A stretch of DNA of 64,000 bases, from contig NZ_JHBV01000049.1 in the NCBI RefSeq assembly GCF_000724545.1, positions 1-64,000 of the forward strand, read 5' to 3'. Positions 54,675 through 61,526 of the stretch are shown here, in pieces. The notes under the pieces are model-generated. The model had not been told where the DNA came from, ran no database searches, and saw only the letters and a list, made by a program, of their open reading frames with translations. Numbering within the stretch: the stretch's first letter is position 1; each line of letters starts with the position of its first letter. A program made the position numbers and the translations under genes. The DNA comes from Aureispira sp. CCB-QB1 (GTDB taxonomy: Bacteria; Bacteroidota; Bacteroidia; Chitinophagales; Saprospiraceae).

Positions 54675-54725
54675 GCAACTTTGTTGCATTATTTTTGCAA
54701 CACTGTTGCAAATGGATTATCTTTG
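54675..54725 (+). promoter_or_regulatory. Promoter with two zinc-regulator-like operators for the TonB receptor gene
   Basis: Two copies of GCAAC-N3-GTTGC lie at 54675-54687 and 54697-54709, centres 22 bp apart. The second extends to the perfect dyad TTTGCAACACTGTTGCAAA (54694-54712). The promoter is TTG at 54695-54697, 20 bp, then TATCTTTG at 54718-54725, so site 2 fills the -33 box and half the spacer. A bound Fur-family repressor (Zur by context) would block polymerase. The start codon at 54730 is only 4 bp after the -7 box, so the mRNA should be leaderless or nearly so. Confidence 0.7.
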
Positions 54726-54729
54726 TATT

Positions 54730-57075
54730 ATGAAATTAATAACTACCATATTCCTCCTATTTTTTTGCTTTGGTTTGGTTGCTGCTCAAAATAGTCGCAT
54801 ACATGGACAGGTTACAACAGAGGACAATCAAATACTTGCTAATGTTTTTGTTGAGTTGATGGAGTTGTCATTAACAACATTAACAGATGCCCAAGGCTAT
54901 TATGAATTTGAGGTAAAAGAAGGTGCATATACATTACAATATAGCTATGTGGGGTTTGAAAGCATTCAAGAAAAAATACTAGTAGAAAAAGGGGCTTCTG
55001 TGTTGGTAAATATTGAGTTTGCAGCAACTAATTACAAAGATGTTGCTATTGTGGTCAACGAAGAAGCTGCGTTGAGTATAGACCAAAAGACTAGTCTTGA
55101 TGGGCAGTTTTTTGAAGAGAATGCACAGGGAACTTTTGCGAAATCATTAGAAAAAGTAACTGGAGTAAATGCTATCAATGTTGGGGTGGGAATCGCCAAA
55201 CCTGTTATTCGTGGATTGTCATTTAATCGAATTGTTGTCAACAATAATGGTATCAAACAAGAAGGACAACAATGGGGTGCTGACCATGGGCTAGAAATTG
55301 ATCAATTTGGAGTAGATCGAATTGAGATTATTAAGGGGGCAGCTTCTTTGCGCTATGGTTCAGATGCATTAGGGGGCGCTGTGAATATTTTGCCAAATAA
55401 GATTATTCCCAAAAATAGAATTAAAGCCAGTTTATTGGGAATTTATAAAACCAATAACCAGCATGCTGGAATGTCTGCTAGTGTAGCAGGGCGAATATCT
55501 GATTTTTTCTTTGATGCTCGTTTTAGTTATCAGGATTTTGGAGATTATAGAGTTCCTGCGGAAGTTTTTGTATATAATGAGTTTGTTTTGCCAATATACA
55601 ATCAACAGCTCAAAAATACAGCTGGCAAAGAGCGAAATATAAGAGCTAGTTTGGGGCTGATAAAAGATTGGGGCGTAAGCAGGTTGACTTTTAGTCATTA
55701 TTATTTGAATGCAGGTATTTTTTCAGGAGCCGTAGGAATTCCTAGATCCTATGCTTTGGATATAGATGGCAACGACCGAGATATTGATGTGCCAAGTCAA
55801 CAAGTGAATCATTTTAGTTTGGTTTGGAACAATGATTTGACTATCAAACAACATCGTTTGCAATTGAATATCGGTTATCAAAATAATTTACGACAAGAAT
55901 ACTCCTTCCCGCATTATCATCAATTGCCCCCAACAGATAATTCTGATGTCGCCTTGCAGTTGAACCTGCAAACGGTTAGTGGTGATTTGATCTTTACTCA
56001 AAATGTCAATAAGAAATGGAAACATGTGTATGGAGGAAGCTTTCAATATCAAATCAATCAACGGGCAGGTTTTGAGTTTTTATTGCCCAACTTTCAGACC
56101 GTCCGTACTGGGGGATATTGGTTTGGTACATTCAAACCGAACAAACGATGGGTACTTAGTGCGGGACTTCGACTAGATTATGCTTATAATTATAATGACA
56201 AGTATGCACAAGCAGTCTACGGCGAACGCCAAACCATACAATACCTACCCAAGGTAGCGATGAATCAGCAACATTTTTTTAACTATGCGGCAGCTTTGGG
56301 AATGAATTATGTCTTACGGAAAGATGTTTGGAATTTTCAAGTAAATTTGGGGAAAAGTTATCGAGTGCCTTACCCTTCTGAAACCGCAGCGAATGGGATT
56401 CATCACGGTACGTTTCGACATGAAATGGGAACGCCTGACTTAAAGCCAGAACATGGTTACCAATTAGAATTATCTAGTCATATAAAGTGGAAGACAGTCC
56501 AAGCAACTATAACGGGATTTGGAAATTATTTTCAGCAGTATATTTATTTGAGTCCGACAGGAAAGTTTTCAACACTGCCAGAAGCAGGGCAATTGTATCA
56601 ATACGTGCAAACAGATGCGATTTATGCCGGAGGTGAATTAGATTGGTCTTGGCAACCTGTACCTGAGTTAACCCTTAGGCAAGGGTATGAATATGTTTGG
56701 AATGTTAATTTACAAACTCAATTAGGATTGCCTTTTACGCCGCCAGCTAGCATTTTGTCAGAAGTGCGATACGAGTGGAAAAAACTGGGATTTTTAGAAA
56801 ATATTTATGCTCAAATTACGCATCGTTATTCTTTTGCTCAAAATCGGACGGATCGAAACGAGCCTAAAACACCAGCTTATCATCTGTTAGATGCAGGGCT
56901 AGGGTTTAAAATTCGCATTCGGAAGCAGGTGATACAAATTGGTGTGCAAGCTCAAAACTTGTTGAACACAGCTTATTTGAACCACCTTAGTCGTTATCGC
57001 ATTCTAGAAATTCCAGAACAAGGTAGAAATTTTGTTGTGACCTTAAAGGTGCCTTTGGAGTTTGCTTTGAAATAA
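54730..57075 (+). CDS. ZnuD-like TonB-dependent receptor (probable zinc uptake)
   Basis: The start is ATG 54730 (MKLITTIFLLFFCFGLVAAQ, signal peptide), giving 781 aa; the longer frame starting at 54706 would run through the promoter. A carboxypeptidase-regulatory domain (about 22-105) is followed by a plug at about 110-215 (VNAINVGVGIAKPVIRGLS, WGADHGLEIDQFGVDRIEII, GSDALGGAVNILPNK) and a barrel. The loop NGIHHGTFRHEMGTPDLKPE resembles the His-containing motif of ZnuD-type zinc receptors (ANG-x-H...E-x-G-x-x-DLK-x-E). With the operators upstream, zinc import under zinc limitation is the best guess; cobalt or heme are alternatives. The gene lies between mcrC and a GNAT gene, reading against both. 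Confidence 0.85.
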   Translation: MKLITTIFLLFFCFGLVAAQNSRIHGQVTTEDNQILANVFVELMELSLTTLTDAQGYYEFEVKEGAYTLQYSYVGFESIQEKILVEKGASVLVNIEFAATNYKDVAIVVNEEAALSIDQKTSLDGQFFEENAQGTFAKSLEKVTGVNAINVGVGIAKPVIRGLSFNRIVVNNNGIKQEGQQWGADHGLEIDQFGVDRIEIIKGAASLRYGSDALGGAVNILPNKIIPKNRIKASLLGIYKTNNQHAGMSASVAGRISDFFFDARFSYQDFGDYRVPAEVFVYNEFVLPIYNQQLKNTAGKERNIRASLGLIKDWGVSRLTFSHYYLNAGIFSGAVGIPRSYALDIDGNDRDIDVPSQQVNHFSLVWNNDLTIKQHRLQLNIGYQNNLRQEYSFPHYHQLPPTDNSDVALQLNLQTVSGDLIFTQNVNKKWKHVYGGSFQYQINQRAGFEFLLPNFQTVRTGGYWFGTFKPNKRWVLSAGLRLDYAYNYNDKYAQAVYGERQTIQYLPKVAMNQQHFFNYAAALGMNYVLRKDVWNFQVNLGKSYRVPYPSETAANGIHHGTFRHEMGTPDLKPEHGYQLELSSHIKWKTVQATITGFGNYFQQYIYLSPTGKFSTLPEAGQLYQYVQTDAIYAGGELDWSWQPVPELTLRQGYEYVWNVNLQTQLGLPFTPPASILSEVRYEWKKLGFLENIYAQITHRYSFAQNRTDRNEPKTPAYHLLDAGLGFKIRIRKQVIQIGVQAQNLLNTAYLNHLSRYRILEIPEQGRNFVVTLKVPLEFALK

Positions 57076-57667: not shown

Positions 57668-59041
57668 TTATTCCACAGGCTTGGCTGGATGAACCTCGTG
57701 TAGATAAAAGCAGGCATCCCACTCAGAGGGTCTGATTGTTATCTCATAATCATTTTCTTTTATCATTGTATTGGCATTGAACCAACTATAGGTAGAAGAT
57801 GGCACCTTTTTGAAATTGAGGTAATAGTTCTTTGTTGCAATTGCTTTCATCACGTGCTCCATACTTTCTATAGGTGGTGCGGGGATGGTATCCACAAAAC
57901 GTTTGTCGGGCACTTGCCATTTGTTCCAGAAAAGTCCTTTCCCATAAACCATACCTATGACATACAAACTATCCTTGAGTTGCTGTTGCAGCAGTTGTCC
58001 CATTGGTGTAAAATTGCCATACATTTCGCCTTGGTACTGAGAGGCTGTTTTAGTATGAACAACGTGATTGACAACAATAATTTTAGCCTCTTTTTTATAT
58101 GATAACGCCCATTGAATATTCTTAGCCATGGCAATTTCTCGACCATTTAACCCCGCATATTTTGAATGGCTATTGACGCTATCAGTGGCATCTTGGTAAT
58201 TTCGATAATAATTTTCAGCCATTCGCATCGAGCGAATACACTGCAAAATCCATTGATAATCTTTGAGACTGCTTCTGCTAATATAGGTCGCTTTGTTAGA
58301 TTGGAATGAGTCAATTAAATCTTCCAAAATAACCATCAAGTTATTTTTCTGTTTGTCCGTTAATTTAATCATATAATGATAAGCTGCCCATTTAGTCATC
58401 ACTTTGAAGTAAGGAGCCATGTCTCGCCTAAGTTGTTTGGAAAGAGGAGCATCTACTGAATCTATATAAGAGAAGATTTGCTCAAATGGAAATCGCCAAT
58501 TATTATAAAAACCGCCAATATCTGCTCCGATGTAATCCACTTGGTTGGCATGTTGTTGATTATATGTGCGAAGTGATTCGATGGTTTTTCGACCTGTTTT
58601 CCATTGGGTGTACATGCTTCCGACACTTCGTTCCCATAAATTAGAGATGGAGTCTTTGCCATGGATATAATCGTTCATATATTTGGATTCAGGCAAGCCA
58701 CTTTCTGTAATGACTGTATTAAACCCTTTGTGTTCTATTAAGTAGGGGATGAGTTGTTGTTGCAAGCGTAACATCTCTTCACAATTGTGAAATCCCTCGC
58801 TGAGTAGAACAACTTTAGCGTTGGCAATATCCGCTGCAATTTTTTCGAGCAAACTATCAGAAAGCAACTTTGCTTCGTTCTCAAAAGAGATCAAGTTTTT
58901 TTGACCCCATTCTATGAATAATTCTTTGCCGCTAAGGACATTTTTTAAATCTGTTTGTTGAGGAGAGGACTGTGTATTGGTGCATCCTGTAAGTATTGAA
59001 AATAGGAGGGGGAAAATAAAAACTACTTTTAACAAATGCAT
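57668..59041 (-). CDS. Erythromycin-esterase family lipoprotein
   Basis: The 457-aa protein starts with a lipoprotein signal (MHLLKVVFIFPLLFSILTGC, Cys20). The EreA/SuccA-like fold is shown by AKVVLLSEGFHNCEEMLRLQ (the GE-x-H region with the family catalytic His and Glu; here SEGFH), FNTVITESGLPESKYMNDYI, and LSYKKEAKIIVVNHVVHTKT, followed by the C-terminal AAY-type helices. Ere enzymes open the macrolide lactone ring, but most relatives in Bacteroidota have other, unknown substrates. Being secreted and lipid-anchored argues against a cytoplasmic drug esterase. It lies 268 bp downstream of mcrB with a terminator between. Confidence 0.82.
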   Translation of the reverse strand: MHLLKVVFIFPLLFSILTGCTNTQSSPQQTDLKNVLSGKELFIEWGQKNLISFENEAKLLSDSLLEKIAADIANAKVVLLSEGFHNCEEMLRLQQQLIPYLIEHKGFNTVITESGLPESKYMNDYIHGKDSISNLWERSVGSMYTQWKTGRKTIESLRTYNQQHANQVDYIGADIGGFYNNWRFPFEQIFSYIDSVDAPLSKQLRRDMAPYFKVMTKWAAYHYMIKLTDKQKNNLMVILEDLIDSFQSNKATYISRSSLKDYQWILQCIRSMRMAENYYRNYQDATDSVNSHSKYAGLNGREIAMAKNIQWALSYKKEAKIIVVNHVVHTKTASQYQGEMYGNFTPMGQLLQQQLKDSLYVIGMVYGKGLFWNKWQVPDKRFVDTIPAPPIESMEHVMKAIATKNYYLNFKKVPSSTYSWFNANTMIKENDYEITIRPSEWDACFYLHEVHPAKPVE

Positions 59042-59309: not shown

Positions 59310-61526
59310 TTATTGATAAATATTTTGATAAGCATCTTTGGGTAATGGGAAGTCTTTTATGCTGTACATTGGTTTGTCCCAAGCACGATCTAAGCCCTCG
59401 TAATCAAAATTAGCAAAACGATTGTATTCTATTTTTTTTAGATCCAAAAAATCTTTGCCGAGTACCAAGCCAATTTTACCAAAATCACCATAAAAGTATT
59501 CTAACAAAAGAGGAATAATTTGTGTTTTAAAAATTTCTTGCAACTCATTGAGACTACTAATATTCATGAAATAAGAATGCCCAATTAAGTGATGATCGTC
59601 TAGCAAAATACCAATGCGTTCATTCATCTTTTGGTGCATCAGTCGAAGGTTTACGCCTTCAATATTTTCACTCAATAAGATAGAATCAGGCAACATTTCT
59701 ATAAAAGAAAATCGGCGCCGCAAGGCCATATCCAACTGCTCAATACTTCGATCGGTTGTATTCATTGTAGCAATCAAATATAAATTGGGTGGCAATGAAA
59801 AAAGCGTTTTGGAGTAGGGAAGTTGTACTTTTAAGGCATTGAGCATTTGAAGGCGTTTGTCTTCTTCCAATAAGGTAATCAATTCCCCAAAAATATTGGC
59901 AACGTTTCCTCGGTTTAGCTCATCTATAATTAGTACAAAGGTTTTGTCTGGATCTTGTAACGCATGGTGGCAAAGGTTTTTAAGAATACCATTTTGTAGA
60001 TTGTAATGGACTTGATTGTCAACAACAACAGGCTTGATACCCTCGACAAAGTCCTCATACGACATCGCTTGATGAAAAGTAGTAAAAACAACTTGCCCAT
60101 TACTTACGTAAGCATCAAAGCGTTTTTGAATGGTGTTGGCATCCATCTGTTGCACCAGTGTCCACGACTTATTTTCGACAATCGCAATGGCTCTGCGAAT
60201 ACTTTCAAACGTTTTTCCCGTACCTGGTGGACCATAGAGGATTTGATTGAGAGGAAATTTAGTATTAGCCGCTATTTTATAACCATTACTTGGCTCTGTA
60301 ACTTGTTGGTGCGTGATTTCATCATAATAAATATCCTCATCGGTGTATTTCCACAAATTTTGTATGCTAGGAGCATACAACAATAGTTTGATTAGATAGG
60401 TATAATTACTGAAGCTTGTTGCCGATAAATCAAACTTGTTAAAATAGCTGACCAGTTGCAAGGTAAATAAATCGGCTTGATAAGTACTATCTAATAAGTG
60501 GTTGGCAATTTGGCGTTGATTTTTAGTCGACAGAATAGGCGTATGCTCCTCTGGATGAATTAAGTAGAGTAAGGCGTCTTTGATATTTGTAGTGCGAATC
60601 GCATCTAAGTCATTGCCAGCCTGTTTGTATTGTGTTAATTGTTGAATCCACAAGTTTTGTCGAATACCAGTATAGGCAACACAGCGTTTGTCTGAATAAT
60701 CATTCCACTCTTGTTTGGCCGCTGCTTTTTCATCTATATAAGCAATTAGTTTTCCTATTAATAAAGCAAAATCAGCATAAGGCTTTTTATTTTGAACAGA
60801 TTGAACAAAGCTGTCGTAACGTCCTTCAAATAGTTGATAGTCTTCTAAAAATTGTTGGTAAATACTGGGCGATAATTCAATATCTTGGAATGCTTTTAAA
60901 ACTTCTTGAGCTTTCTGAAACCAAAAAACATTAGCTTGTTGGACCTTTATAATATCCAAATCTTCTTTTAGCAACTGTTGAATGGCCTTGGGAAGAATGG
61001 TCAAGTACTTATCCTTATTGTCTACATCTTTAAGTAGCTCATTGTAAACAAACATATTCATAGCAGCTCGATAAATCCATAGATTATTAGACTTTTGATG
61101 GGTTGTTTTTTTGCGAGGTTGCTGCGCCAAAAGCTGAAGTGCTTGTAACCAAATTGCAATAATTACTTGATTGGTCAAAACAGGTTTGGATAACTGAAAA
61201 CGAGCCATTCCCGTACGCATTTTACCAATTTTCTGTTTGCTAGCTTGAAAATTTTGGCTATTGGGTAAAGAGTCTTGATCTTTGGCTAGACAAAGCAGTT
61301 CTATGTAGTGTTTTCTATCTCTTACTTTGTGAATAAGAATAGGGCAGTTGTTGAGTTGTACATAAAGCGCAGTATTGTCACTGTGAATAGAACACAATAA
61401 ATTAGAGGCATCTTCCTTGATCTGAAGCTGTTCAAAGGCAAATCGTAGCAATTTTAAAAAATGCCCAACTAGTTGGGTGTTAGGGAACTGCCTGAAGTAT
61501 TGTATGAGTTGTGTTTTTGAATGCAC
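59310..61526 (-). CDS. mcrB: McrB-like AAA+ GTPase with long N-terminal region
   Basis: The 738-aa protein has an AAA+ domain of the McrB type from about residue 425: NQILYGPPGTGKTFESIRRA (Walker A), VVFTTFHQAMSYEDFVEGIK, TFVLIIDELNRGNVANIFGE (Walker B and the McrB-specific NRGN), YLIATMNTTDRSIEQLDMAL (sensor and NTAD-like MNTTDRS) and RRRFSFIEM (Arg finger region). The first 420 residues are helical and I do not recognise a DUF3578, EVE or ADAM-type reader domain in them, so the target DNA modification is unclear. The start is GTG at 61526; no in-frame ATG occurs earlier and TAA lies three codons upstream. The nuclease partner is mcrC at 53371-54606. Confidence 0.9.
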   Translation of the reverse strand: MHSKTQLIQYFRQFPNTQLVGHFLKLLRFAFEQLQIKEDASNLLCSIHSDNTALYVQLNNCPILIHKVRDRKHYIELLCLAKDQDSLPNSQNFQASKQKIGKMRTGMARFQLSKPVLTNQVIIAIWLQALQLLAQQPRKKTTHQKSNNLWIYRAAMNMFVYNELLKDVDNKDKYLTILPKAIQQLLKEDLDIIKVQQANVFWFQKAQEVLKAFQDIELSPSIYQQFLEDYQLFEGRYDSFVQSVQNKKPYADFALLIGKLIAYIDEKAAAKQEWNDYSDKRCVAYTGIRQNLWIQQLTQYKQAGNDLDAIRTTNIKDALLYLIHPEEHTPILSTKNQRQIANHLLDSTYQADLFTLQLVSYFNKFDLSATSFSNYTYLIKLLLYAPSIQNLWKYTDEDIYYDEITHQQVTEPSNGYKIAANTKFPLNQILYGPPGTGKTFESIRRAIAIVENKSWTLVQQMDANTIQKRFDAYVSNGQVVFTTFHQAMSYEDFVEGIKPVVVDNQVHYNLQNGILKNLCHHALQDPDKTFVLIIDELNRGNVANIFGELITLLEEDKRLQMLNALKVQLPYSKTLFSLPPNLYLIATMNTTDRSIEQLDMALRRRFSFIEMLPDSILLSENIEGVNLRLMHQKMNERIGILLDDHHLIGHSYFMNISSLNELQEIFKTQIIPLLLEYFYGDFGKIGLVLGKDFLDLKKIEYNRFANFDYEGLDRAWDKPMYSIKDFPLPKDAYQNIYQ

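Follow-up and report, generated by a model that had tools for sequence, protein, structure and literature searches.

A putative tandem Zur operator at the promoter of a ZnuD-like receptor gene in Aureispira

In the window analyzed here (a 64-kb stretch of DNA from Aureispira sp. CCB-QB1), a gene for a TonB-dependent receptor is preceded by two short dyads that lie close to its start codon. This arrangement raises two questions: which regulator, if any, reads the dyads, and where does the transcript begin relative to them? A preliminary description of the window had proposed that the dyads are operators of a zinc-responsive member of the Fur family (Zur) and that the mRNA is leaderless, or nearly so. 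On the sequence comparisons that follow, the two dyads very probably form a tandem Zur operator; the point at which transcription starts is predicted with less confidence.

Dyads and promoter of the receptor gene

Both dyads, O1 and O2, lie where they had been described (Table 1). O2 is its own reverse complement except for the central base (a 9-1-9 palindrome), and the cores of O1 and O2 are 22 bp apart. Both had been said to occupy the −33 box and the spacer; this is true of O2, which alone overlaps these elements, and not of O1, which ends 6 nt before the −33 TTTG. The 64-kb window contains only these two exact cores. With up to 2 mismatches, the core has 32 matches in the window, compared with a mean of 21.2 and a largest value of 31 in shuffled sequence; because this enrichment is mild, the signal resides in the exact cores and the palindrome. 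The 19-mer of O2, allowing up to 3 mismatches, occurs at a single place in the window, with one match on each strand, and none of 100 shuffles gave two matches (mean 0.07).

Table 1. Features of the receptor locus and genes associated with the dyad in the genome
Feature	Location	Strand	Remarks
O1 (dyad 1), GCAACTTTGTTGC	54675–54687	.	Upstream of the −33 element
O2 (dyad 2), TTTGCAACACTGTTGCAAA	54694–54712	.	Spans the −33 TTTG and the greater part of the spacer
−33 element, TTTG	54694–54697	+	Part of the left half-site of O2; separated from the −7 box by 20 nt
−7 box, TATCTTTG (TAnnTTTG)	54718–54725	+	4-nt gap, then ATG 54730
Predicted transcription start	54730	+	A of the start codon; from placement of the box at −12 to −5
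Alternative −7-like box, TATTTTTG	54690–54697	+	TAnnTTTG match; in G151, not in L131
ZnuD-like TonB-dependent receptor, 781 aa	54730–57075	+	CarboxypepD_reg-like, plug and barrel domains
Zur-like (Fur superfamily) protein	G000:C41:95871–96266		FUR domain PF01475, 33.2 bits against a cut-off of 23.1
Receptor gene	Window		Two sites upstream (O1, O2)
DUF1826-zigA	C8		Two sites upstream, 39 bp apart
Lipoprotein-like gene pair	C41		Two sites upstream, 42 bp apart
zupT	C33		One site upstream
Pyr_redox_2 oxidoreductase	G000:C37:22589 (L034 4590)		One site upstream; thioredoxin-reductase-like
zur-like gene	C41		One site 54 bp upstream, mismatch in core
ORF without evident zinc role	C39		Intergenic site 68 bp upstream

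Sigma-A promoters of Bacteroidota combine a −7 box, TAnnTTTG, with an upstream TTG near −33, at a spacing of ~20 nt. The receptor promoter has this pattern, with TATCTTTG as the −7 box and TTTG at N20 upstream. Passages of a paper on Flavobacterium psychrophilum (PMC9723704) place TAnnTTTG at −12 to −5 and put leaderless mRNAs at 5.5% of the mRNAs mapped. Applied to the window, this placement predicts that transcription begins at the A of the AUG.

The genus offers a first comparison. Among nine genomes, the receptor was found in three (our own, G182 from the same species, and the congener G151, whose receptor is 67% identical), and not in the other six at E 1e-60. G182 is identical to the window across the compared stretch. 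G151 keeps both dyads, their 22-bp spacing, TTTG-N20-TACCTTTG and a 5-nt gap before the ATG, and the bases between O2 and the box have changed. Of the named matches, the one closest in receptor identity (56%) is L131, an Aureispira MAG. Its dyads are 39 bp apart, and it has a TATTTTTG that ends 4 nt before the ATG; no TTG was found 17–23 nt upstream of this near-ATG box, so that the −33 TTTG of the window is unmatched there. The O2 core is kept in G182, G151 and L131, and a near-ATG TAnnTTTG is kept in all four aligned sequences (window, same-species G182, G151 and L131), with 4, 5 and 4 nt between box and ATG in the window, G151 and L131, respectively. The box had been described as ending 4 bp before the start codon, which is so, and the near-leaderless geometry persists in both the congener and the MAG. 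Together, these promoters support a start at or adjoining the AUG, and we consider it somewhat probable that transcription of the receptor gene begins there.

The promoter also offers a second −7-like box, TATTTTTG, and a second in-frame ATG, at 54712. Transcription from TATTTTTG (54690–54697) would leave a leader of 28 nt to ATG 54730, or ~10 nt to ATG 54712. This is a variant of the Zur explanation, not an alternative to Zur, and we regard it as unlikely, though worth keeping in mind. The box matches TAnnTTTG and is kept in G151. At L048, L049 and L052, and at the DUF1826 promoter of the Aureispira genome, the last letter of a −7 box is the dyad's first G, and this register is the commonest in the survey described below (21 of 112 sites). 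Against such a start, no TTG was found 18–22 nt upstream of the box, though L048, L049 and L052 also lack one; the box is missing at that place in L131, where the near-ATG box alone remains; and ATG 54712 has no counterpart in G151, whereas the near-ATG box is present in every aligned sequence. As a start codon, ATG 54712 is disfavored by its absence from G151 and by a signal-peptide-like stretch that begins at 54730.

Divergent from the receptor gene is a gene for an McrBC-component protein (PF10117; 53371–54609, minus strand), and an AAA_5 protein, McrB-like by eye, is encoded at 59310–61526 (minus strand). The receptor, a GNAT acetyltransferase and an esterase are encoded between the two. 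An erythromycin-esterase family protein (PF05139, 141 bits) with a lipoprotein-like N-terminus is encoded at 57668–59041 (minus strand). A similar McrC-like ORF is also divergent to the receptor gene in G151 (L231).

The receptor, its companion genes and the candidate regulator

The nearest solved chain to the receptor is ZnuD (PDB 4rdr; E 1e-18). D185, H186 and H558 of the receptor align with D99, H100 and H499 of ZnuD, i.e., with three of the four residues of its high-affinity zinc site; the fourth, E340, falls outside both aligned stretches. From the alignment, we take D99, rather than D90, to be the zinc-site residue. D90 is the residue printed, with H100, E340 and H499, in a passage on this site (PMC4557270). 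The receptor scores 111 bits against the NCBIfam ZnuD model, NF038289 (cut-off 950), and 133.7 bits against a heme/hemoglobin subfamily model (cut-off 316.85). Because the ZnuD cut-off is missed and the heme model scores higher, we call the receptor ZnuD-like, the term under which it had first been described and with which its nearest solved relative agrees. It is probably an outer-membrane zinc receptor.

A search of the whole genome (7.37 Mb in 184 contigs) for TGCAACNNNGTTGCA, allowing up to 1 mismatch in its 12 bases, returned 21 places, compared with 12 for the reversed pattern. Nine of the 21 are upstream of candidate regulon genes, three are elsewhere in intergenic DNA, and nine are inside ORFs. 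The exact ten-base core occurs at nine of the 21, eight of them in the candidate-regulon group and one inside an ORF. Such a search had been expected to turn up zinc uptake genes and zinc-free ribosomal protein paralogues. The genes behind the dyads are zinc-linked and include DUF1826-zigA, zupT and two lipoprotein-like genes; the zur-like gene itself is also among them, its dyad having one mismatch. No zinc-free ribosomal protein paralogue was recognized at the 21 sites. The ZupT family assignment is above its cut-off; the gene called zigA matches the ZigA model best, yet falls just short of the cut-off (547.7 of 600 bits). The two proteins of the lipoprotein-like pair, assigned as such by eye from their N-termini, both have HxH motifs, and the second is a DUF4625 protein. 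Taken as a set, these genes suggest that the box probably controls a small zinc-starvation regulon that includes zur.

A leaderless mRNA is not a trait of the regulon as a whole, a possibility that we rejected: the boxes of four other targets in this genome predict starts at −72, −46, −68 and −41, and thus leaders of 41–72 nt. No matching −7 box was found in the promoter of the oxidoreductase gene.

Two proteins in this genome have a PF01475 domain, one encoded on C41 and one on C16. The nearest solved chain to the C41 protein is E. coli Zur (E 7e-6), and four of its five structure-chain matches are named Zur or metal-uptake regulator; the nearest solved chains to the C16 protein are Fur and PerR. 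NCBIfam names neither protein above a cut-off, and the C41 protein scores 37.2 bits for PerR, 35.6 for Fur and 32.4 for Zur (cut-off 167 for Zur), all under the cut-offs. The assignment as Zur therefore leans on genomic context. The C41 protein has a putative regulatory Cys/His site, its YAACH being aligned with the YVLCH of E. coli Zur, and two CxxC motifs, SCTKC and ICPNC.

The dyads could instead bind the C16 Fur protein or another metal sensor, with the receptor importing heme or a siderophore. The heme/hemoglobin model is the receptor's top model, though under its cut-off; according to a passage in PMC4557270, ZnuD was at first wrongly annotated as a transporter of heme; and PerR and Fur score slightly above Zur for the C41 protein. 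On the other side are zupT, zigA, DUF1826 and zur, all behind the same dyads, the ZnuD chain with its aligned D99, H100 and H499, and the co-occurrence of the motif with zur across the order, the one regulator gene compared in this way (see below). The gene set and the nearest solved relatives of the C41 and C16 proteins make Fur in place of Zur very improbable. The reading of the dyads as marks of a Zur regulon is strongly supported in silico by the zinc-linked genes behind them, the ZnuD-like receptor and the conserved geometry.

The motif across the order and its overlap with promoter words

In a sample of 149 genomes of the order, our own included, the exact 12-base motif occurs 149 times and the reversed pattern 5 times, a ~30-fold excess. 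This bears on the possibility that palindromes such as these arose by chance in AT-rich intergenic DNA. Chance would fit the mild enrichment of the core at 2 mismatches in the window (32 matches, shuffled mean 21.2) and the nine of 21 genomic places that fall inside ORFs; it does not fit the excess across the order, nor the presence in G151 of both dyads at 22 bp despite the changed bases between O2 and the −7 box, nor the conservation in L131. Conservation and counts lead us to reject it, and we give it almost no credence.

The motif is associated with zur. A protein like that of C41 was found in 79 of the 149 genomes at E ≤1e-5; the exact motif is present in 61 of these 79 and missing from 18, and it is present in 13 of the 70 genomes without a hit (Fisher p 3e-13), with the reservation that sites from related genomes are not independent. 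Sixty loci were scanned for exact cores, 30 fetched by motif (L070–L099) and 30 by zur (L100–L129). Among the 30 zur loci, eight have an exact core at a distance of no more than 1.5 kb, and in six of these eight it is no further than 120 bp from the start of zur; no exact core was found over that distance at the remaining 22, our own zur locus among them. In L081 and L082, zur and a divergent TonB receptor gene have dyads between them, and so do zur and a MerC-like gene in L098 and L099 (MerC was assigned by Pfam in L131 only, and by eye elsewhere). In G034 (L101), two dyads lie between zur and a divergently oriented oxidoreductase gene, which supports the C37 oxidoreductase as a target.

Other arrangements were seen in passing. 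In L087, L088, L090, L093 and L117, a dyad lies between MerC-like and SCO-like genes (both by eye), and the contig also carries a zur-like gene not far away. In L131 (1–6355), zigA, a DUF1826-like gene, MerC and two lipoprotein-like genes form one run that is divergent from the receptor gene, with two dyads between the run and the receptor; much of the regulon is thus in one cluster.

Receptor loci were compared over the order, using 30 loci that include our own and leave out weaker matches; an ortholog (L055) and a distant paralog (L066) were cut off and are not counted. A dyad with up to 1 mismatch lies within ~220 nt upstream of 12 of the 14 assessable orthologs, which are 39–49% identical, where start codons, as in the tandem-pair and register counts below, were picked by script and are in some cases wrong. 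Three of the 12 (L043, L044 and L045) have 1-mismatch cores only. No dyad was found at the other two orthologs, L042 and L050, the latter being partly masked with ~135 nt readable upstream, nor at any of the 13 distant paralogs in the set that could be assessed. Two receptors outside this set, 28% identical (G019:C12 and G059:C1), have tandem dyads just upstream, so dyads occur beyond the ortholog clade as well. In named genomes, a dyad with up to 1 mismatch precedes 25 of 76 assessable receptor relatives (10 exactly) and the control pattern precedes none, the control being CpG-rich, the choice of starts heuristic, 4 of 80 relatives cut off, and the loci in part repeating contigs of the order receptor loci (e.g., L130 and L193). 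The layout of a dyad before a receptor gene is common in close orthologs and patchy beyond. In three MAGs (L172, L178 and L184), a variant, GCAAC-N3-ATTGC, in tandem and 17 bp apart, replaces the canonical pair upstream of receptor relatives.

The spacing of 22 bp, described initially as two turns of the helix, does not generalize. Tandem pairs elsewhere are 28, 37–40 or 42 bp apart, and we rejected a 22-bp rule upon finding spacings of 22, 28, 37, 38, 39, 40 and 42 bp among 17 pairs.

A different regularity concerns the position of the dyad relative to the −7 box. Among 112 oriented intergenic sites, collapsed from 121, three registers recur: (i) the last letter of TAnnTTTG is the dyad's first G (21 sites, the commonest); (ii) TAnnTTTG follows 30–32 nt downstream, and the right half-site supplies its TTG as the −33 element (17 sites); (iii) TAnnTTTG follows 20–21 nt downstream, and it is the left half-site whose TTG acts as the −33 element (10 sites). 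At least one register is found at 45 of the 112 sites and none at 67. The receptor promoter in the window has the third register; the DUF1826 and lipoprotein-like promoters of the same genome have the second, with N20, and the DUF1826 promoter also has the first. For boxes within 60 nt of all 112 sites, 48 of 77 are in register in the sense direction compared with 21 of 50 antisense, divergent promoters included; when only the 56 sites that lack a divergent partner are counted, the numbers are 30 of 39 and 3 of 10. TTTG stands at the left end of the dyad in 24 of these 56 sites, with TA correctly placed in 15, compared with 0–8 at nine neighboring positions. Because the sites are related and the starts heuristic, we take the register pattern as strong, not yet as a law.

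These sites, gene set, conservation and registers suggest a mechanism in which we infer the protein-DNA contact, the response to zinc and the start site. When zinc is plentiful, the zinc-loaded C41 protein would bind O2, and probably O1. On O2, it would mask the −33 TTTG and the spacer, blocking sigma-A RNA polymerase and keeping the receptor gene off. When zinc falls, Zur would leave the DNA and transcription would start within about one nucleotide of the AUG; the leaderless or near-leaderless mRNA would then serve zinc uptake across the outer membrane. In this lineage, TTTGC/GTTGC half-sites would double as the −33 TTG or as the TTTG of the −7 box.

A broader proposal follows the registers: the Zur operator of Bacteroidota may often be one and the same object as the sigma-A promoter, with TTTGCAAC/GTTGCAAA half-sites that hold TTTG/TTG in three fixed −7 registers, and in the window this fused element would stand against the receptor start codon and yield a zinc-controlled leaderless mRNA. 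We hold this proposal in even balance between acceptance and doubt. If true, loss of the operator would also cost the promoter, which could lock zinc genes to Zur, and an mRNA of this kind would exist in a phylum without Shine-Dalgarno initiation. The fused layout would also allow regulated start sites to be predicted by a concrete rule.

Relation to known Zur systems

Zur-type control in Bacteroidota appears little described. Among the literature matches listed, no Zur box for Bacteroidota was found in titles or abstract openings, and no fused operator-promoter registers were found; the passages of papers on Bacteroidota species that were available contain no Zur box. The defined box, the candidate regulator and the gene list make the regulon directly testable, and the regulon suggests roles for DUF1826 and DUF4625-type proteins and for a redox enzyme. 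Part of this association has a precedent in a figure legend on Zur-regulated COG0523 clusters, which names DUF1826 together with an outer-membrane protein, OMR (Haas et al. 2009, PMC2770081). The co-localization figure of that paper covers gamma- and beta-proteobacteria, and the text, as seen, has no match to “bacteroid” (PMC2770081).

Besides missing the ZnuD cut-off, the receptor departs from Neisseria ZnuD in other ways. Neisseria ZnuD has a long His cluster in loop 3, whereas the receptor has only PHYH and an IHHGTFRH stretch; and the receptor, unlike Neisseria ZnuD, has an N-terminal CarboxypepD_reg-like domain. In F. psychrophilum, leaderless mRNAs have been mapped; here, the leaderless mRNA is predicted, and tied to a zinc operator.

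The box itself is already known from a prediction in Desulfovibrio. As given in the part of the paper available, the predicted Zur box, ATGCAACNNNGTTGCAT, lies upstream of znuABC-zur in two genomes (Rodionov et al. 2004, PMC545781). The likeness extends to the words of the palindrome, TGCAAC-N3-GTTGCA, to the zinc genes and to zur among the targets; in Aureispira, too, TGCAAC-N3-GTTGCA precedes zinc genes and zur, the latter with one mismatch. The differences are the phylum, the targets found here (a TonB receptor gene, zigA, zupT and lipoprotein-like genes), and the tandem sites with shared promoter words.

Tandem Zur boxes over −35 and −10 are reported for S. coelicolor znuA and B. subtilis yciC in a passage of a review (PMC6103462). 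As in the receptor promoter, two boxes occur in one promoter and overlap both promoter elements. The Zur box sequences and the sigma-factor consensus of S. coelicolor and B. subtilis differ from those of the window, where, unlike at znuA and yciC, the half-sites match the TTG/TTTG promoter words letter for letter.
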